Assembly: GCF_000407145.1 (NCBI RefSeq)
Contig: NZ_KE136473.1
Location: forward strand, 931,827 to 995,826
Length of the DNA stretch: 64,000 nt
DNA from: Enterococcus caccae ATCC BAA-1240
Lineage (GTDB): Bacteria; Bacillota; Bacilli; Lactobacillales; Enterococcaceae
Direction: 5' to 3'
Below are positions 28,739 to 52,763 of this stretch, one piece after another; position 1 is the first letter of the stretch; each line of letters begins with the position of its first letter. A model generated the notes under the pieces. It worked only from the letters and a program-made list of their open reading frames with translations. It was not told the DNA's origin and ran no database searches. The translations under genes and the position numbers were made by a program.

Positions 28739-29242
28739 TTAGATAAACAACATAATGGTTTTAGTGACAAAGTTAGCAACCCCAGTTGGCATTCCAACTT
28801 TTTTACATGCGTTAAAAATAGCGTTTTCCAAAGTTCCAGTGTAGTGTTCAATTAAATTTAAAAACCCATTTATGCCTACGTAACCACTAATAGTATTTCT
28901 AACTCCTGCAGGCAATTTATTCCAAACTTTTCTAATAGCTTTAACTGCCCATGTAAATTTCCCGCGTTGCATATCTAACTGTTCTACACCGTTAATAAAG
29001 GCTTTTCCATTTTCCAAATAGATTCCAGGTGATTCATAATTGTTAAAGGCTTCAATTTCTTTACTAGTAAAGCCATTTTCTTCTAAAATAGACCCATTAA
29101 TTTGAAAATCAGGATCAAATTGTTCATCGTTTCGTTGTTCTGAATTAGTAATAGAATCGGCAAATACGATAGCAGTTGGAGAAACGGCAGAGGCAAGTAG
29201 CCCTAATGCACAAAATAAGATAATATTTTTTTTAAGAGTCAT
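28739..29242 (-). CDS. Secreted hypothetical protein with bacteriocin-like C-terminus
   Basis: A 167-residue protein with a clear Sec signal peptide (about residues 4-28, cleavage near VFA-DS), an acidic propeptide-like region to about residue 90, and a basic, amphipathic/hydrophobic C-terminus of about 75 residues (FTWAVKAIRKVWNKLPAGVR, then ENAIFNACKKVGMPTGVANF, ending FVTKTIMLFI). The single Cys, paired Lys and hydrophobic tail look like a membrane-active peptide released from a precursor. I do not recognise a named family and cannot show activity. It has its own promoter at 29290-29318 and a small membrane protein gene downstream. Confidence 0.55.
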   Translation of the reverse strand: MTLKKNIILFCALGLLASAVSPTAIVFADSITNSEQRNDEQFDPDFQINGSILEENGFTSKEIEAFNNYESPGIYLENGKAFINGVEQLDMQRGKFTWAVKAIRKVWNKLPAGVRNTISGYVGINGFLNLIEHYTGTLENAIFNACKKVGMPTGVANFVTKTIMLFI

Positions 29243-29318: not shown

Positions 29319-29576
29319 TATTTATTTAATCAAAATCACTTTTATCTTTCTTTTTAATTTAATATATATTTCATTTTAGGTTGTAAGTAAGATACGTTGT
29401 TATCCCGAAAAAGATAGATTTAGACTCTTACAATAAAAATGCAGTTATATTAAAATAATGTTTTTAAGAGGAGAAAATGAAAAAATTATTTATATTGAAT
29501 TTGAACTCTAAAAAGCAATCTATCTATAAGTTAAGAGCTGAATCTCAAAACAGAGATTCAGCTCTTTCCCTATAAC
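29319..29576. other. Intergenic region with a possible 32-codon reading frame and terminator
   Basis: Very AT-rich. An ATG at 29477 behind ttaagaggag opens a 32-codon frame to 29575 (MKKLFILNLNSKKQSIYKLR at its start), but its second half is the hairpin AGAGCTGAATCTC / GAGATTCAGCTCT (29532-29563). It is more likely a remnant or chance frame than a gene. The hairpin can end transcripts from both sides. Confidence 0.35.
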
Positions 29577-30755: not shown

Positions 30756-31933
30756 ACAAGCCCTCCTTGTTTCTTAAAGGTTTCCCTCTGCTCGGTCCCC
30801 CGTGCGTTCAAGGCAATGCCAAGTGTAATGCTTAGAATTAGCAAACTAGAGCCGCCATAGCTGATAAAAGGAAATGTTAGCCCGGTCATCGGGATATAGC
30901 CTAACAAACTACCGACATTTACAGCAACCTGAAGGAATAACAACATCCCGCAACCGATATAAAGATAAGAGTAATAAAGGTGTTTTGATTTAATGGCTAA
31001 TAAAAATAACCGGGCAACAATAAAGAAGACAGCAAATAAAATACCTAAAGCAACAATCAAGCCTAGTTCTTCGATGCAAATCGCGAAAATAAAATCCGTA
31101 TCAGCGGCTGGAAGAAAGCCTTTTTTCTGAATACTGTTACCTAAACCCAATCCAAAAAATCCGCCATTATGCATTGCGTAGTATGCATTTGAAGTTTGAA
31201 ATCCTTTGCCTGTCGGATCAATGAATGGATTTTGCATTACTTCAAAACGTGTGACTAAATAGCCAAATTTTTGAGGCATCCAGTCAGTTGGAATTGATAA
31301 TAAAAGAACTGTCCCCAGTCGTTTTAGTACAACGAATCCAACTAAAGCTATTGATGTAAATAAAGGAGACAAACCACTGAACAAAAACATAACTGAAACC
31401 AAGATGAAAATCATTGAAGCGCCAGCGATATTTGGCTGTAAAGCAACAAAGAACATAAAGAACATCGAAACCAACAATGAGCGCTTATGATTCTTTAGGG
31501 TAAAAGGAACTAGTGTATCATTTTTTGCTAAGTTTAACGCCAAGTAAAGGACAAGAACTAAAGGAACTAACTCGGATGGTTGGAAAAGCAGCACACCCAA
31601 ATTGATCCAGCGTTTTGCACCACCAACACTTGTTCCGATAAAAGGCAATGCAACAATAGATAGAAATGTAAATGTTAATAGGCAATACATCATCTTAGAA
31701 TTACGAAGCACACTTAAATTAATTCGATAGGCAACACTCATACAAACTAAGCTGAAAAGAAAATACATGGTTTGCTTGATGGCTTTACTAGCAGTTCCCA
31801 AGTCACTATCTAACAATTGATAGGAACTTGAACTGTAGACCATTAGTATGCCAATGATACATAAAATCAAATAAGGGATTAAGATATAAAAGTCGATATA
31901 ATGCAGCTTGGATAATCTTTTTGGCCAGCTCAT
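30752..31933 (-). CDS. SEDS family peptidoglycan polymerase, FtsW-type
   Basis: A 393-residue polytopic protein. Landmarks are GGAKRWINLGVLLFQPSEL, the conserved aspartate in LPAADTDFIFAICIEELG, and TGLTFPFISYGGSSLL, all FtsW-like. It starts within the last 4 bp of the upstream hypothetical gene and ends within the first 4 bp of the RodA-type gene, a tightly coupled operon. No gene for a partner penicillin-binding protein is adjacent, which is unusual for SEDS genes. The operon is preceded by an M-box riboswitch. Confidence 0.87.
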   Translation of the reverse strand: MSWPKRLSKLHYIDFYILIPYLILCIIGILMVYSSSSYQLLDSDLGTASKAIKQTMYFLFSLVCMSVAYRINLSVLRNSKMMYCLLTFTFLSIVALPFIGTSVGGAKRWINLGVLLFQPSELVPLVLVLYLALNLAKNDTLVPFTLKNHKRSLLVSMFFMFFVALQPNIAGASMIFILVSVMFLFSGLSPLFTSIALVGFVVLKRLGTVLLLSIPTDWMPQKFGYLVTRFEVMQNPFIDPTGKGFQTSNAYYAMHNGGFFGLGLGNSIQKKGFLPAADTDFIFAICIEELGLIVALGILFAVFFIVARLFLLAIKSKHLYYSYLYIGCGMLLFLQVAVNVGSLLGYIPMTGLTFPFISYGGSSLLILSITLGIALNARGTEQRETFKKQGGLV

Positions 31934-32346
31934 TGTTTTGCTCCATTGTCCAAAAAGTCATGAATGATTTTTTCAGTTTGTTTTTGATCAATTTTAAAGG
32001 TGCTGTTAACGTTAGTGCAATCGTTAAAAGTCCAGATCCCTTTTACTGGTACTGATAACGATTTTCCTGTGAAAAATTTTTGTGTTAAAGTCACAAGAAA
32101 ATCACTAAGAATAGTAGTATTTAAGTGCTCGTCGTTTGCATCGACTTCGTGCTTGTTGACACTGATCGGTGTTAGCGTAATTTTATTATAATTATTCTGT
32201 TGATTACCAAAATAATTATTGTTGACTGGAGATAGAGCTATTTTTTTTCCATTAAGAAAGCGGACTGTACTATAACTCCTGATACTGGCAAAAAGCAAGT
32301 TGGTACAGCGAATCACGCAGATTAAGAATTTCATTCCTGTTTTCAT
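31930..32346 (-). CDS. Hypothetical protein in the SEDS operon
   Basis: A 138-residue protein that I do not recognise. The N-terminus (MKTGMKFLICVIRCTNLLFA) is weakly hydrophobic and might be a signal anchor; the rest is polar, Asn-rich (NNNYFGNQQNNYNK) with a C-terminal part KGIWTFNDCTNVNSTFKIDQ. The 4-bp overlap with the FtsW-type gene and the ATG placed 2 bp after an upstream stop argue that it is, or recently was, translated. The odd N-terminus could mean that the frame has shifted near its start. Confidence 0.5.
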   Translation of the reverse strand: MKTGMKFLICVIRCTNLLFASIRSYSTVRFLNGKKIALSPVNNNYFGNQQNNYNKITLTPISVNKHEVDANDEHLNTTILSDFLVTLTQKFFTGKSLSVPVKGIWTFNDCTNVNSTFKIDQKQTEKIIHDFLDNGAKQ

Positions 32347-32348
32347 TT

Positions 32349-32528
32349 TTATTCCTCGCTAATCATTTTTAATTGATCATCAAATAAAGTTCGGCTATAG
32401 GAATTGTTTCAGATGGGAATAAAGAGTTCTTTTTGCTAAGAGTAATGAGTGACAGGCAGTTCTAGTCCGCTTTCTTCAAACTGTAAATATAAATAGTCAC
32501 CTCCAAAAATCAATTGTTCTGCCAACAT
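32349..32528 (-). pseudogene. Short decayed reading frame between M-box and SEDS operon
   Basis: From an ATG at 32528, just past the riboswitch terminator, one frame reads MLAEQLIFGGDYLYLQFEES, then ends at a TAG, continues QKELFIPI to a TGA, and continues RTLFDDQLKMISEE to a TAA that lies 2 bp before the next gene's ATG. The in-frame continuation to a correctly placed stop suggests a gene of about 60 codons with two nonsense mutations. Family unknown. Confidence 0.4.
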
Positions 32529-32539
32529 TATTTCTCAAA

Positions 32540-32573
32540 ACAAAAAACCTTCGCATAAATAACTCAGCGAAGG
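32540..32573 (-). terminator. Terminator of the M-box riboswitch ahead of the SEDS operon
   Basis: Minus-strand stem CCTTCGC / GCGAAGG (32567-32573 with 32548-32554) followed by TTTTTT. The loop holds TGAGTT, which can pair with AACTCA in the aptamer's 3' part, giving the alternative antiterminator. Confidence 0.75.
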
Positions 32574-32768
32574 GGGATTGATTTCAGCACAAATAGAGCT
32601 TCTTCATCATTCTCATCGTTGAGTTTTAGCACTATGAAACGTAAAAAGCTGGCGCTTTTAGCTACTTTGTGAAAAGCCTTAATTCGACAATTCCTGTCCT
32701 ACCCATTCCTGTCTTTCGACATTTTTGAGCAGTAGCCTGTGTTTCCATAGGAGCCTCACCTAACAAGT
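32574..32768 (-). ncRNA. M-box (ykoK) magnesium riboswitch upstream of the SEDS operon
   Basis: Minus-strand sequence gttaggtgaggctcctat, acacaggctactgctcaaaa, atgtcgaaagacaggaatgg, gtaggacaggaattgtcgaa and ataGTGCTAAAACTCAACGATg follow the M-box consensus block by block. It is about 80% identical to the second copy before mgtA at 49823. In Bacillus the M-box ends transcription when Mg2+ is plentiful. The genes downstream on this strand are a decayed frame, a hypothetical protein and two SEDS polymerases. Confidence 0.88.
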
Positions 32769-32784
32769 TATTCAGATCGCCCTA

Positions 32785-32813
32785 AATATAATGAATATCT
32801 CCTTTAAAGTCAA
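32785..32813 (-). promoter_or_regulatory. Promoter of the M-box/SEDS transcript
   Basis: On the minus strand TTGACT (32813-32808), 17-bp spacer, TATATT (32790-32785), about 20 bp before the aptamer: a near-consensus promoter. Confidence 0.75.
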
Positions 32814-47423: not shown

Positions 47424-48317
47424 TTAGTGAAATGAGGGATTAGTAAATAAGGATATTGTTTGTTTTAATTGCGTGCTCATATACTTATTTTTAAGGTAAT
47501 AAATGGACATCGTCCTCATCGGAAGGCTTTTGTGATTGATTGCAGTAATATTTAAAGCATCTAAGTGGCCTTCTAAGTATTGTGGAACAATGGAGAAGGA
47601 ATTCGAATTGCTGACCATATAAAGGATTAATTCAGTTGTATCAACTTGAATGTCATGTTGTTGAGACCGTGTAGGAAAGTTCTCCTGCATCCAATCGTAA
47701 ATTATTTTTGTTTCAAGAAATCGTTGATTAAAAAAAACAAAAGGATAATCGTCAAATAAATCTAACGTAATAGTTGCATGTTCTAAAAGTGGATGGTCAC
47801 GTCGAACGATCAATTGATACTCATTTGAATAAATGTCGAGTTTATGAATGGTTGATGGACTATTGCTTATAGATGGACCAATCCCGATATCAGATTCTAA
47901 TGTAGTGAGTGAATTGAAAATATTATCTGAAATAATTGTGTTTACTTTTAGTTGTTTGTACTCGTGAAATAGGGTAGACAGGGTATCATTTAATTTAAAT
48001 TCTAGATCATTTAAAAAAAGTGAGACATTGATTGTAGTTGAAATAGAGCCCTCTGTGGATGAAAGGTCGTTTATCTCCTCCTGAATATAAAACATTTCTT
48101 GTTTGATCCGCCAACAATGGGTTTCTAAAATTTTACCAGCAGGAGTGAGCTGGCAGGTGGAACCATTTCTTAAAAAGAGAGCCGTTCCAAATTCATCTTC
48201 AAGGTTCTTTATTTGTTTACTCAGTGCAGCTTGTGAAATTCCAAGTGAATTACTTGCTCTGGTAAATTGTTTTTGTTCGCAGAGTGCTAAAAAATAATTT
48301 AAATGTAATAGTTCCAT
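47424..48317 (-). CDS. LysR family transcriptional regulator
   Basis: A 297-residue LysR-type regulator: N-terminal winged helix-turn-helix (LNYFLALCEQKQFTRASNSL, GISQAALSKQIKNLE) and a C-terminal periplasmic-binding-like effector domain from about residue 90. The effector is unknown. The start is the ATG at 48317 behind gaaaggagg; an upstream in-frame ATG is inside that site's spacer. It follows a second LysR gene on the same strand, and no obvious target gene is adjacent. Confidence 0.88.
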   Translation of the reverse strand: MELLHLNYFLALCEQKQFTRASNSLGISQAALSKQIKNLEDEFGTALFLRNGSTCQLTPAGKILETHCWRIKQEMFYIQEEINDLSSTEGSISTTINVSLFLNDLEFKLNDTLSTLFHEYKQLKVNTIISDNIFNSLTTLESDIGIGPSISNSPSTIHKLDIYSNEYQLIVRRDHPLLEHATITLDLFDDYPFVFFNQRFLETKIIYDWMQENFPTRSQQHDIQVDTTELILYMVSNSNSFSIVPQYLEGHLDALNITAINHKSLPMRTMSIYYLKNKYMSTQLKQTISLFTNPSFH

Positions 48318-48343
48318 TGTTTTTCCTCCTTTCAATAGAACGC

Positions 48344-49225
48344 TTAAAAGATAAATTGAAGTTGCGAAATTAAATATTCATGTGTTTTCGAAAGCTGACT
48401 ATTTGAAGAATAGCCAATGGAAATATTTCTAAAAGGTCCATCTATTATTTCAACAGAAGTAATATCTAAATAAGTAGGAAGTGAATCTGCTAATGAATAA
48501 GGGAGAAATGCTACACCAAAATCTTGATCAACTAAATTTAAGATAGAAATGGTTGATGGCAGTTCATAAATAAGATTGTTTTTAAGTTCTGGCTGATTCG
48601 ACTCGATCCATGAATCAATTATTTTTTTTTCATAGATTTGGTTTGAATAATTGATTAGAGGCAGAGTTTGCAAATGACTCGCTGATAATTCGCTCAAATC
48701 TGCCAGCTTATTTTTGATACTAGTGAAAACGACATAAGATTCAGAAAAAATCAATTCACTCGTAATAGTGGCATTTTCATCTGATAAAATACCAATTGCA
48801 ATATCGATTTCTTTGTTTTCAAGCATTCCTTCTAAATCATTGTAATACCCATAATCAAGTGAGACAGATGGATAAGATCGATGAAAACTCGTTAAGGATC
48901 GAGCAATCAAATAATCTGTATCGGCCAAATTAGTGCCAATTCTGATTGTTGCTGTTTCTCCAGTATGGACAAGTAAGTCGATTGCAGTGACTGCCTTATC
49001 CAATTCCTGAAAAATTGTCTCTCCTCGTTTTTTTAAAACCAAACCTTCAGGTGTTAAGGTGTTGTTTCCATAATCTCTTGTTATTAATTGAGCGTTTAGT
49101 TCCTGTTCTAATTCTCGAATATGAGTGCTTAAATAAGGCTGTGAAATATCCAACTCCTCAGAAGTTTTTGTAAAACTCTTGTTTTTACATAATGCTAAAA
49201 AATAGTCTAAGTGTTTTAGTTTCAT
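48344..49225 (-). CDS. LysR family transcriptional regulator
   Basis: A 293-residue LysR-type regulator with the helix-turn-helix LDYFLALCKNKSFTKTSEEL, DISQPYLSTHIRELE and a full effector domain. The N-terminal half is clearly related to the neighbouring regulator (LxYFLALC, ISQ.YLS/ALS), which suggests a tandem duplication followed by divergence. It starts at an ATG behind aaggagatgag, 26 bp upstream of the second gene, so the two are cotranscribed. Confidence 0.88.
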   Translation of the reverse strand: MKLKHLDYFLALCKNKSFTKTSEELDISQPYLSTHIRELEQELNAQLITRDYGNNTLTPEGLVLKKRGETIFQELDKAVTAIDLLVHTGETATIRIGTNLADTDYLIARSLTSFHRSYPSVSLDYGYYNDLEGMLENKEIDIAIGILSDENATITSELIFSESYVVFTSIKNKLADLSELSASHLQTLPLINYSNQIYEKKIIDSWIESNQPELKNNLIYELPSTISILNLVDQDFGVAFLPYSLADSLPTYLDITSVEIIDGPFRNISIGYSSNSQLSKTHEYLISQLQFIF

Positions 49226-49822
49226 TTTCTCATCTCCTTCACACTGTTAAAACCTAACCTTATATCAAGATAAAATAAGTTTTACTGAAATAGTACTTTT
49301 TTTGAAAAATTATATAAAAAATTAATAGTAGATCAAATGAAAAGGAAAAGGCTCCTTCAACTGGTGATAGCAAACCAATTGAAGGAGCCTTTATCAGCCT
49401 ATTATACACTGATAAGAAACGATGAACTTTTTTGCTTCTACACTGTAAACAAACAATTTACTTCTTTAGTATAAATGTGAAGGGAACGTTAAACCATACC
49501 ATTTTACTTATAGTGTCATTCTTTTTTTGATTCAAGGAGAAAATAAATACCACTTCGTGGGAATACGAAGTGGTATTTATCAGAGTTTACATTGTAAAAA
49601 AGGAGTATGGATATCTATATAAACGAAGTTGGGAAGTTCGTTTATATAACTATCATATAGATAAAAGGCAAAATAGACTATTCTATTTAAGTCATATCAC
49701 TATTCGTTTAACGACGGTTATCAAATAAAGAGTGCAGGAACATTCAAAAAAAGTTATAGCACTATCATTTTTTGGGACTATAAAATAATAATTTAAATCA
49801 TTAGAATGATAGTGTAATTCTT
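49226..49822. other. Hairpin-rich intergenic region between lysR and the mgtA riboswitch
   Basis: About 600 bp without a convincing gene. It contains three strong inverted repeats: AAAGGCTCCTTCAA...TTGAAGGAGCCTTT (49348-49392), AAATACCACTTCG / CGAAGTGGTATTT (49545-49578) and TATATAAACGAA / TTCGTTTATATA (49615-49648). A fourth, CACTATCATT / AATGATAGTG (49760-49769 with 49805-49814), brackets the probable promoter region of the riboswitch transcript. The first two look like terminators; small RNAs here are possible. Confidence 0.45.
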
Positions 49823-49993
49823 CTTGTTAGGTGAGGCTCCTATACAAACACAGGCTACTGCCCAAAAATGTCGAGAGACGCCAATGGGTAGAACAGGAAT
49901 TGTCGAACGAAGGCTTTTCTTAAGGTAGCTAAAAGCACATGCTTTTTACGTTGTATAGTGCCAAAACTCAACGATTACGAAGACTCACGGCAA
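49823..49993 (+). ncRNA. M-box (ykoK) magnesium riboswitch upstream of mgtA
   Basis: Contains the M-box blocks gttaggtgaggctcctat, acacaggctactgcccaaaa, atgtcgagagacgccaatgg, acaggaattgtcgaacgaag and tagtgccaaaactcaacgat. It lies 110 bp before the magnesium P-type ATPase gene, the textbook arrangement. In high Mg2+ the folded aptamer favours the terminator that follows. Confidence 0.95.
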
Positions 49994-50044: not shown

Positions 50045-50134
50045 ATGCCAGAAGATAGTTCGATAAAGCAGAAATCAACAAACAGAAAAGAGGACAATTC
50101 AGATGCAAAAAGAAATAAAGAACATGATCCATGA
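50045..50134 (+). other. Possible leader ORF overlapping the mgtA start
   Basis: A 29-codon frame beginning MPEDSSIKQKSTNRKEDN starts behind aaaggatg and ends 32 bp inside mgtA in another frame. It could be a regulatory leader peptide, or the original N-terminus of MgtA put out of frame by an indel near 50130. A ribosome site (gagga) does precede the mgtA ATG at 50103. Confidence 0.3.
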
Positions 50135-52763
50135 AAAAGCCTATCAAAAATTAGCAAATCTATCGATTGATAATGTCTTAGAAAGCTTTTCCTCTTCCTG
50201 GGATGGATTGAAAGCCAGAGAAGTTCAACGTTCAAAGGAAAAATTTGGTGTCAATAAAATCACTGATGACAAAAAGAAATCGTTTATTTATACAGTGATA
50301 AAATCCTACGTTACACCATTTACAGTTGTATTAATGATCTTGGCAACGATTACGTTTTTTACTGAGTATCTTTACGCAGAGCCAAGTGAAAAGGATCTAG
50401 CTGGTGTTTTGATCATGCTTGTTATGGTTTTATTAAGTGGGACAATGACGTTAGTCCAATCAGTGAAGTCCAGTAATGCTGTCAGCAAACTGCAAAATAT
50501 GATCCAAATTACTGCAACAGTCACTAGAGAAAATAAAGAAATGGAAATTCCCGTAGATGAAGTTGTTTGTGGAGATTTAGTGAAACTTTCAGCTGGAGAT
50601 ATGATTCCAGCGGATTTGCGCTTGATTCAGGCCAAAGATTTATTTGTATCGCAATCAGCGATGACTGGTGAGAGCTTTCCTGTTGAGAAGAAAGTGAAGA
50701 ATGTTGTTTCTACAAATAACAATCAAACTGATTTTGAAAATCTATTATTCCTAGGGAGTAATGTGGTCAGTGGTAGCGGTGTTGGGGTAGCAGTTCGTGT
50801 TGGAGACAATACATTATTTGGGAAGATTGCCCAAGATATAGCAGATGATGAGAAAAAAACCAGTTTTGAATTAGGTGTAAATAAAACGACTTGGTTATTG
50901 ATTCGTTTTATGCTGGTGATTACACCAGCAGTCTTTTTAATTAACGGAATCACGAAAGGCAATTGGAGCGAAGCATTGATGTTTGCGATTGCGACAGCAG
51001 TGGGTCTTACACCAGAAATGTTACCCATGATCGTTACGACTAATTTAGTTAAAGGCTCTAGAGATATGGCAAAAGAGGGCACGATCATGAAAAACGTCAA
51101 CGCCATTCAAAACTTTGGTGCTATGGATATTCTATGTACGGATAAGACAGGCACGTTAACACAAGATAAAGTGATTTTAGAATATCATTACAATACCTCG
51201 TGTCAAGAAGATCGTGAAGTCTTACAATCGGCATTTTTAAATAGTTACTTTCAAACAGGTCTTCGTAATTTAATCGATAAAGCAATCATTGAAGCCACTT
51301 CAAAAGAACTGTCTATTGATGAAGAAGACTATTTTAAAATCGATGAAATTCCGTTTGACTTTAATCGCAGAAGAATGAGCGTGGTCGTTAAAAATAGAAG
51401 GTCTAATCAAAGCTTCTTGATCACTAAAGGAGCTGTTGACGAAATGCTACAAGCGTGTTCTCATATCAATCAGCATGGAGAAGTTATTCCAATTACCTCT
51501 AAAATAAAAAAACAAGTATTAAAAACAGTAAACGAATTAAATGAAGATGGTTTGCGCGTTTTGGCGATTGCGGATAGAGAAGTCAACAATCAATTAGGTG
51601 ACTATTCAGTTAAAGATGAAAAAGGACTGATCCTGCAAGGGTACCTAGCATTCTTAGACCCACCTAAAGAAACTGCATCAACAGCAATTAAAGCGTTGAA
51701 AAATAATGGCGTTTCTGTAAAAATATTAACAGGGGATAATGAGTTGGTCACCTGCTCAGTCTGTAAAGAAGTCGGTCTAGGATCTGAAAAAATAATCAAT
51801 GGTTCAGCTATTGCAAAACTTTCTGAGATCGAATTAAAACAAACGGTCAATGAGTACAATATCTTCGCAAAGGTAACGCCAGATCAAAAAACTAAAATTG
51901 TTAAGGCGCTGAAAAAAAGTGACCAGACAGTCGGCTTTATGGGAGACGGAATTAATGATGCTGGTGCGATGAAAGTGTCAGATGTTGGAATTTCTGTTGA
52001 TACAGCAGTAGACATTGCCAAAGAATCAGCCGATGTCATTTTATTGCAAAAAGACTTGATGGTTTTAGAAAAAGGAATTATATCTGGTCGCAGAGTATTT
52101 AGCAATACGATGAAATATATCAAAATGACAGCAAGCTCAAATTTTGGCAATGTATTTTCGGTTATCCCAGCTAGTATCTTTTTACCTTTTCTACCAGTAG
52201 CACCGATACAATCACTTTTTTTGAATCTGATTTATGATACATCGTGTATGTCTGTACCTTGGGATAATGTAGATGCCGAATATGTAGAAAAGCCTAGAAA
52301 ATGGGAAGCAAAATCGATTGGTTCATTCATGAAATGGTTTGGACCAACAAGTTCTGTTTTCGATATCGTAACATATTTATTTATGTACTTTATTATTTGC
52401 CCAGCGATTTTAGGTGGTAGTTTCTTCTCGTTGACCGCTGACAAGCAACTACTATTTATTGCTGTTTTCCATGCAGGTTGGTTTATCGAGTCATTATGGT
52501 CTCAAATGTTGGTACTTCATGTATTGAGAACCCCTAAAATACCATTTCTTCAAAGCAGAGCATCTGGGATCTTAACCTTGGTAACGTCAATTGGAATTTT
52601 AGTTGGAACGATTTTGCCCTTCACATCGCTTGGAGCAAGTATTGGTTTTGCGCCATTACCAGGAAACTATTTCTTTTATCTAATGCCAACGATTATTGCT
52701 TATTTAGTTTTAGTAACAATGATTAAAAAAATCTATATCAGAAAATACCAAGAGTTATTATAG
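50103..52763 (+). CDS. mgtA: Magnesium-translocating P-type ATPase
   Basis: An 886-residue P3B-type ATPase importing Mg2+. Landmarks are the actuator motif TGES (residues 188-191), the membrane GLTPEMLP (301-308), the phosphorylated Asp347 in CTDKTGTLTQ, the TGDNELVTCSVCKEVG hinge and GDGINDAGAMK. The C-terminal helices contain IQSLFLNLIYD, typical of MgtA/MgtB. The M-box upstream gives independent support for the substrate. Monocistronic, ended by a hairpin at 52800. Confidence 0.95.
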   Translation: MQKEIKNMIHEKAYQKLANLSIDNVLESFSSSWDGLKAREVQRSKEKFGVNKITDDKKKSFIYTVIKSYVTPFTVVLMILATITFFTEYLYAEPSEKDLAGVLIMLVMVLLSGTMTLVQSVKSSNAVSKLQNMIQITATVTRENKEMEIPVDEVVCGDLVKLSAGDMIPADLRLIQAKDLFVSQSAMTGESFPVEKKVKNVVSTNNNQTDFENLLFLGSNVVSGSGVGVAVRVGDNTLFGKIAQDIADDEKKTSFELGVNKTTWLLIRFMLVITPAVFLINGITKGNWSEALMFAIATAVGLTPEMLPMIVTTNLVKGSRDMAKEGTIMKNVNAIQNFGAMDILCTDKTGTLTQDKVILEYHYNTSCQEDREVLQSAFLNSYFQTGLRNLIDKAIIEATSKELSIDEEDYFKIDEIPFDFNRRRMSVVVKNRRSNQSFLITKGAVDEMLQACSHINQHGEVIPITSKIKKQVLKTVNELNEDGLRVLAIADREVNNQLGDYSVKDEKGLILQGYLAFLDPPKETASTAIKALKNNGVSVKILTGDNELVTCSVCKEVGLGSEKIINGSAIAKLSEIELKQTVNEYNIFAKVTPDQKTKIVKALKKSDQTVGFMGDGINDAGAMKVSDVGISVDTAVDIAKESADVILLQKDLMVLEKGIISGRRVFSNTMKYIKMTASSNFGNVFSVIPASIFLPFLPVAPIQSLFLNLIYDTSCMSVPWDNVDAEYVEKPRKWEAKSIGSFMKWFGPTSSVFDIVTYLFMYFIICPAILGGSFFSLTADKQLLFIAVFHAGWFIESLWSQMLVLHVLRTPKIPFLQSRASGILTLVTSIGILVGTILPFTSLGASIGFAPLPGNYFFYLMPTIIAYLVLVTMIKKIYIRKYQELL

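Follow-up and report, generated by a model that had tools for sequence, protein, structure and literature searches.

In the window, which is the whole stretch of 64,000 nucleotides of Enterococcus caccae ATCC BAA-1240 DNA analysed here (contig NZ_KE136473.1), an M-box, the aptamer of a well-known magnesium riboswitch class that usually precedes genes for magnesium pumps, lies on the minus strand directly before an operon for two SEDS peptidoglycan polymerases of FtsW2 and RodA2 type. Between the M-box and the polymerase genes is the remnant of an LCP (LytR-CpsA-Psr) gene. Probably, a transcriptional OFF riboswitch here controls a spare wall operon, LCP-FtsW2-RodA2, which is part of an envelope regulon. 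Sequence comparison has confirmed that the M-box before the SEDS operon is real and that it is conserved in most of the FtsW2 loci examined in the family. This suggests that many enterococci turn to a second set of wall-building enzymes when magnesium is short.

An earlier, sequence-only reading of the DNA had placed an M-box, with promoter and intrinsic terminator, on the minus strand upstream of a SEDS operon, and all three elements hold. The RF00380 covariance model matches over its full length at 146.9 bits, the cut-off being 44 (E 2.3e-33). Six M-boxes occur in the genome (G000, 3.55 Mb), two within the window, and the chance that a given gene start falls ≤500 nt downstream of one of the six, on the right strand, is about 4e-4. 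All 18 aligned leaders retain the TTGAC and TATA of the promoter (scanning the region for promoters is weak when taken alone, as it returns 8 promoter-like sites where 6.4 are expected). The terminator is a hairpin followed by six T residues; the terminator scanner did not list it, its loop being above the scanner limit of 8 bases.

The FtsW-type and RodA-type genes were correctly named as such. Both proteins match PF01098 over nearly their whole length (E 2.1e-76 and 1.4e-74). Their scores fall below the NCBIfam equivalog cut-offs, with 271.6 bits against 337.5 for FtsW (TIGR02614) and 267.5 against 336.7 for RodA (TIGR02210), and the pair is related to the housekeeping FtsW and RodA equivalogs without belonging to them. 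The 4-bp overlaps reported between genes are real, and the frame before ftsW2, which is still open, overlaps the ftsW2 start by 4 bases. What had been called a hypothetical gene in that position is an LCP gene without its catalytic core. With the 138-aa frame as query, both ends match, separately, proteins of about 309 residues encoded between the M-box and the SEDS genes of relatives. The intact relative in G019 (locus L101) is an LCP protein (PF03816, 5.1e-44), with MsrR and TagT as the nearest solved sequences. The window frame itself has no match to PF03816, TIGR00350 or any other family, the catalytic core being absent, and the gene is dead in this genome. Behind rodA2 there is a gene for a secreted-looking protein of 167 aa (28739-29242, minus strand), of no Pfam family, with a 61-aa frame adjoining; among 60 loci compared it is shared with E. 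sp. DIV0212c (G013) only.

Recurrence was followed in a sample of 147 genomes, made up of the window's own and others from its genus, family and order. Relatives in it include E. ureasiticus (G002), E. moraviensis (G020), E. ureilyticus (G009) and E. sp. DIV0212c, and further E. plantarum (G015), E. termitis (G010) and E. crotali (G007). The count of FtsW2 loci comes from a search at E ≤ 1e-60 with follow-up in ten genomes, and weaker FtsW2 genes may have been missed; 27 of the 42 FtsW2-type assignments were placed in trees and 15 rest on similarity and operon context. An M-box is directly upstream of the operon in 39 of these 42 loci, which are related and not independent events. The enterococci, where the sequence-only reading had proposed to look for the same arrangement, have it at 17 of 17 FtsW2 loci in the genus; four other genera of the family have it at 2/2, 6/6, 7/7 and 6/7, and one genome of another family (G135) also has an M-box before its FtsW2 operon. 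An LCP gene comes first in 14 of the 17 FtsW2 operons of the genus, the window remnant included, and a SEDS gene comes first in 19 of 20 annotated M-box-FtsW2 loci outside it. The switch occurs with either partner, LCP or extra SEDS, alone: LCP is absent in E. crotali, G011 and G017, where the switch adjoins ftsW2, and G014 has the switch and LCP and no extra SEDS genes. Four genomes outside the family (G101, G107, G114 and G121) have two FtsW-like genes each, all outside the M-box clade; these were considered as M-box neighbours and rejected, none being <30 kb from a listed M-box on its own contig. G109, likewise outside the family, has two FtsW-like genes, both outside the M-box clade and not near its listed M-box (one of two listed).

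The 39 FtsW2-linked aptamers make up 32 distinct rows in a MAFFT alignment, on which pairs were counted by script with the structure taken from the RF00380 match. Standard pairs fill 1359 of 1472 pair cells (92.3%), and controls with slid partners give 33-44%. Two-sided changes are seen in 14 of 46 pairs, several resting on one or few sequences. In the 14 core loci the mean majority in 20-base windows is 0.92-1.00 for the aptamer, about 0.95 for the terminator and 0.47-0.69 for the spacer at 32524-32445. By script, a hairpin with a T-run follows the M-box in 17 of 18 FtsW2-class leaders of the genus, and in the 18th (E. moraviensis) it was found in a separate scan; the script table itself gives 20/21 for this class, with three PAP2 leaders sorted in, and the hairpin choice in G016 is doubtful. 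Outside the genus 22 of 22 FtsW2 leaders have a hairpin and T-run (a count made with no shuffle control), of sequences that vary between genera, the hairpin of G135 being weak at -4.5 kcal/mol. Among the other M-box classes of the genus, terminators are found in 13/17 LCP, 11/11 PAP2-LCP, 2/7 and 22/22 of the mgtA classes, 13/14 mgtC and 2/3 others. The pattern is evidently that of a switch under selection.

In a tree of 64 SEDS proteins, built without a 61-residue fragment, FtsW2 separates from housekeeping FtsW as a clade of its own (support 96/90; 97/97 in a larger tree with more genomes). One FtsW-like gene from each of G101, G107, G114 and G121, which have no M-box there, branches just outside this clade (87/80). 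RodA2 falls into two groups beside RodA, among which the fork does not resolve, and several rows, G023, G135 and G033, have long branches. The catalytic Asp (D284 of E. faecalis FtsW) is present in all 64 aligned proteins. Read most simply, the tree would mean that the switch was gained once, at the root of the FtsW2 clade, and lost three times; transfer between families is possible.

The SEDS operon is not alone in having such a leader. All 95 M-boxes listed for 22 genomes of the genus were classed by the first frame of ≥120 aa behind them, the class names resting on representatives for LCP, PAP2 and MgtC and on two P-type ATPases above the TIGR01524 cut-off. Envelope genes stand behind 49 of the 95 (LCP 32, window remnant included; PAP2-LCP fusion 11; PAP2 or split PAP2/LCP 3; SEDS 3) and Mg2+-transport-type genes behind 44 (P-type ATPase 29, MgtC 14, an acetyltransferase before an ATPase 1). 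The remaining 2 are other (G006:C14:89722 and G021:C6:62713, with first frames of 470 aa and 237 aa). Taken jointly with the riboswitch explanation itself, it is probable that the SEDS operon belongs to a wider M-box regulon of envelope enzymes beside Mg2+ pumps. Two further LCP genes of the window's genome (L098 1112-2026 and L096 1047-2654) each have an M-box of their own; one of them is a PAP2 phosphatase fusion followed by a diaminopimelate dehydrogenase gene.

Some small features accompany the transporter M-boxes. The leader of mgtA in the window has a 29-codon frame, MPEDSSIKQKSTNRKEDNSDAKRNKEHDP (50045-50134, plus strand), that overlaps the mgtA start at 50103 and recurs in all 7 leaders of its class, with SEDSS or P(E/D)DSS near the start, a terminal HDP and ATG or GTG as start codon. 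Its acidic and proline-rich beginning presumably resembles Mg2+-sensing leader peptides such as MgtL, in which case the frame would add another Mg2+ sensor after the mgtA M-box. Small D-D-E-Q-Y-L frames lie between M-box and mgtC or P-type ATPase genes in four genomes (G000:C1:673698, E. crotali, E. sp. DIV0212c and G018; clusters c11 and c22). Two genes for LysR-type regulators (PF00126, PF03466) are found upstream of the M-box-mgtA locus of the window (47424-49225, minus strand).

Features of the M-box-SEDS locus and of the comparison locus in the window
Feature	Position	Strand	Basis or remark
Sigma-A type promoter of the M-box transcript, TTGACT-17-TATATT	32785..32813	-	10/12 matches
M-box aptamer (RF00380)	32604..32774	-	Covariance-model match, full model 1-169
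Aptamer 3' segment AACTCAACGA, proposed antiterminator half	32616..32625	-	Invariant in 14 core loci
Intrinsic terminator CCTTCGC...GCGAAGG + T6	32542..32573	-	Hairpin 32573-32548, -10.3 kcal/mol
Terminator 5' arm/loop TTCGCTGAGTT, proposed other antiterminator half	32571-32561	-	Complementary to AACTCAACGA
Shine-Dalgarno-like GGAGGTGA, without start codon at usual spacing	32497..32504	-	Close behind terminator; kept by most genus members
Conserved block ACTTTATTTGATGATCAATTAAAAATGATTAGCGAGGAA behind terminator, candidate second promoter or regulator site	32352..32390	-	Leader alignment
LCP (LytR-CpsA-Psr) gene remnant, 138 aa	31930..32346	-	Both ends kept (N-terminal segment, C-terminal tail), PF03816 core gone
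ftsW2-type SEDS peptidoglycan polymerase, 393 aa	30752..31933	-	PF01098, catalytic Asp kept
rodA2-type SEDS peptidoglycan polymerase, 392 aa	29577..30755	-	PF01098, catalytic Asp kept
Hairpin directly behind rodA2, likely operon end	29533..29566	-	Sequence
Second M-box of the window, upstream of mgtA (comparison copy)	49816..49986	+	RF00380, 162.2 bits
MgtA magnesium-translocating P-type ATPase (comparison locus)	50103..52763	+	TIGR01524, 1077.7 bits, cut-off 610.75

Two of the three FtsW2 loci without an M-box bear on what the switch may do. G033 is Melissococcus plutonius, its second contig being 100% identical to NZ_AP018525.1 over 5000 bases. PF01098 finds two SEDS genes only in this genome, of which one joins the FtsW2 clade and the other one of the RodA2 groups. 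The LCP, ftsW2 and rodA2 frames of the operon (G033:C1:1150600-1154450, in L118) are open, and in its leader the promoter and the bases of an M-box start, ATAGAACTTGTTA, persist; the leader gives no Rfam match at E ≤ 0.01. When the upstream region is aligned with five intact leaders it beats 100 of 100 shuffles with those of G019 and G014, and with the others it is matched by 2, 20 and 1 of 100. The single other M-box of M. plutonius, before a P-type ATPase gene, is intact. This fits, though it does not prove, a switch that lost its use once the spare set had become the only SEDS set.

The other, G023 (2.9 Mb), is likely to be E. faecalis or a species close to it, because its FtsW, read from a TTG start, has the catalytic Asp at residue 284, as in the published work on E. 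faecalis, and because its FtsW and RodA genes are 31 kb apart, the corresponding OG1RF numbers being 32 apart. No M-box stands directly before its ftsW2-rodA2 pair, which lies some 2 kb from an M-box-mgtA locus; the two LysR-like genes in between are 46% and 41% identical to the LysR pair of the window. In the passages of the E. faecalis study drawn on here, FtsW2 and RodA2 are active polymerases in vitro and are regulated by CroR, the authors leave the natural trigger unidentified, and they suggest altered pH or metal availability as conditions in which the two are needed (PMC12724132). The terms riboswitch, magnesium, Mg2+ and M-box are absent from the text of that paper.

The proposed mechanism is as follows. 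With sufficient Mg2+ the folded aptamer would keep its own 3' strand, the terminator would form and transcription would stop; with low Mg2+, AACTCAACGA would pair with the 5' arm and loop of the terminator, TTCGCTGAGTT, and polymerase would enter the operon. That the switch is of the OFF kind is inferred from its M-box class, and Mg2+ as the ligand from its family membership. The operon is expected to be on at low Mg2+ because the ykoK M-box is described, in the part of the source used, as a transcriptional OFF switch (PMC12810186). Our working hypothesis for the function is that the operon replaces or supports housekeeping FtsW, RodA and LCP during Mg2+ shortage. Wall-polymer attachment would come under the same switch, as the operon starts with an LCP gene in most relatives of the genus.

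Several points weigh against this. Of the 42 FtsW2 loci, those of G023, G068 and M. plutonius lack the M-box. The terminator of the window is of moderate strength, and the region 32640-32535 folds with z = -0.88, 35 of 200 shuffles being equally good. The pairing between terminator loop and aptamer that the sequence-only reading had noticed can form, since TTCGCTGAGTT and AACTCAACGA are complementary with a predicted -10.4 kcal/mol, but 4 of 50 shuffled arms are as good. It is clear of shuffles (≤2 of 50 as good) in just 3 of 20 scored leaders, which include three PAP2 leaders sorted into the FtsW2 class; the same script gives a stronger pairing for mgtA class b of the genus, in 21 of 22 leaders. 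Positions that separate FtsW from FtsW2 and RodA from RodA2 show no clear acidic or metal-site gain, and specialisation of FtsW2 and RodA2 for low Mg2+ is unsupported by group-specific residues for that reason. Three weak promoter-like matches (9/12) follow the terminator, at 32513-32486, 32291-32264 and 32088-32061, the scan total being near chance, and the conserved block at 32390-32352 may drive the SEDS genes without the riboswitch. The earlier interpretation is supported in that the covariance-model hit is on the right strand, the arrangement is conserved in other enterococci and the aptamer core resembles those of relatives; as for control, the block could be a riboswitch-independent promoter and might even carry all transcription.

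That block and its surroundings deserve a closer description. A decayed frame had been seen at about 32350-32500; in the alignment, judged by eye, indels between relatives break the frames, so that neither a translated leader nor a decayed gene is conserved there. The start-less GGAGGTGA in that stretch might, by analogy, act as a non-coding Shine-Dalgarno that shields the messenger. The block itself has a mean majority of 0.87-0.96 per 20-base window in the 14 core loci, contains the palindrome TTGATGATCAA, which might be a LysR motif, and a TTTATT, and has TAAAAA in the window where most core relatives have TAAAAT. As a site repeated through the genome it was rejected, there being a single match with ≤3 mismatches allowed. 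Conserved and unique as it is, it could make for dual input, with a regulated promoter in the block, of CroR type or another, driving the operon under wall stress and the riboswitch trimming the basal level. In what was seen of a study on CroR, TTTATT occurs in each of the six promoters shown to bind this regulator, and croR itself has TAAAAT as its stated -10 hexamer (PMC9426447); ftsW2 and rodA2 of E. faecalis are under CroR (PMC12724132), and the E. faecalis-like G023 has the pair without an M-box. However, chance alone would place a 6-mer such as TTTATT in AT-rich DNA, reading by eye shows no good -35 at standard spacing, the block is unrecognisable in G004, G012 and G016, and the gap from terminator to first gene is only about 23-158 bases in 20 of 22 loci outside the genus (the gaps of G073 and G081 being artefacts of gene choice). 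Dual input is accordingly a possibility that we hold rather doubtful.

Two further alternatives doubt what the switch is kept for, or that it is kept at all. M-boxes also stand before other LCP genes of the same genomes, and with LCP so often first in the genus the switch might be retained for attachment of anionic wall polymers, the SEDS genes riding along. This is unlikely and was already disfavoured, since the switch remains where LCP is dead, as in the window, or absent, as in E. crotali, G011 and G017, and SEDS genes nearly always come first outside the genus. That the aptamer of the window is a decaying, functionless copy is more improbable still. It scores 15 bits below the mgtA copy, has three non-standard pairs (7-165, 8-164 and 81-105) and precedes a decayed LCP gene; against this its core columns agree with those of close relatives, in keeping with the earlier impression of an intact core, 27 of 32 distinct rows have G-A at 81-105, and the SEDS frames behind the aptamer are open.

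A riboswitch with a different purpose is the stronger alternative. The regulon might remodel the wall so as to hold or release Mg2+, by more polymer attachment and a thicker wall, and not replace Mg2+-starved enzymes, and this has a substantial if somewhat less than even chance of being right. The same genomes have M-boxes on LCP, PAP2-LCP and SEDS genes as well as on Mg2+ pumps, and in Bacillus subtilis mutants defective in wall elongation, rodA among them, are rescued when Mg2+ is high, for a cause described in the source excerpt as not fully understood (PMC10336097). No direct counterpoint was found; it is another purpose for the same switch, which sequence cannot separate from the first. 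On the side of replacement, the excerpts used describe LCP enzymes as Mg2+-dependent (PMC7831098) and a SEDS assay run with 20 mM MgCl2. Either purpose, replacement at low Mg2+ or remodelling of the wall, fits. A fuller version of the replacement idea can be offered only tentatively: the M-box regulon would bring in second polymerases and polymer ligases fitted to low Mg2+, which in M. plutonius displaced the housekeeping SEDS proteins, whereupon their switch decayed and the ATPase M-box stayed. Such a low-Mg2+ set would compare with zinc-starved bacteria, which swap in zinc-free paralogues.

If the riboswitch reading is right, a Mg2+ riboswitch on the related operon of most relatives examined would be a concrete and testable answer to the question of when FtsW2 and RodA2 of E. 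faecalis matter. The known reach of M-boxes would widen from uptake to wall assembly, given the envelope share of the genus M-boxes, and the way in which Mg2+ and wall synthesis are linked in Gram-positive bacteria, a known effect that lacks an explanation, would become open to genetics. No report linking M-boxes with SEDS or LCP genes was found among the matches listed in a search of the open-access literature (subscription papers and preprints being outside its scope).

The nearest counterparts each share a part of the arrangement; what is said of them from publications follows the portions of text consulted. The ykoK (mgtE) M-box of B. subtilis has the same RF00380 aptamer, an intrinsic terminator and a proposed antiterminator, and the expected OFF logic is the same (PMC12810186), but it controls a Mg2+ channel, while SEDS polymerases and LCP proteins stand behind the switch here. 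The M-boxes of Mycobacterium tuberculosis (pe20 and Rv1535) are likewise upstream of genes other than classical transporters; they differ in being a translational and Rho platform, before PE/PPE genes proposed to act in Mg2+ uptake, in place of intrinsic terminators and wall enzymes (PMC12810186). Among extra SEDS pairs, E. faecalis ftsW2-rodA2 (OG1RF_11070/11071) also consists of tandem FtsW-like and RodA-like genes, and the G023 pair groups in the FtsW2 clade and with one RodA2 group; its known control is CroS/R, and the G023 pair lacks a directly upstream M-box. The ftsW2-rodA3 pair of Listeria monocytogenes is similarly an extra set with low basal expression that wall-targeting agents induce (PMC12724132), though under the control of CesR/K.

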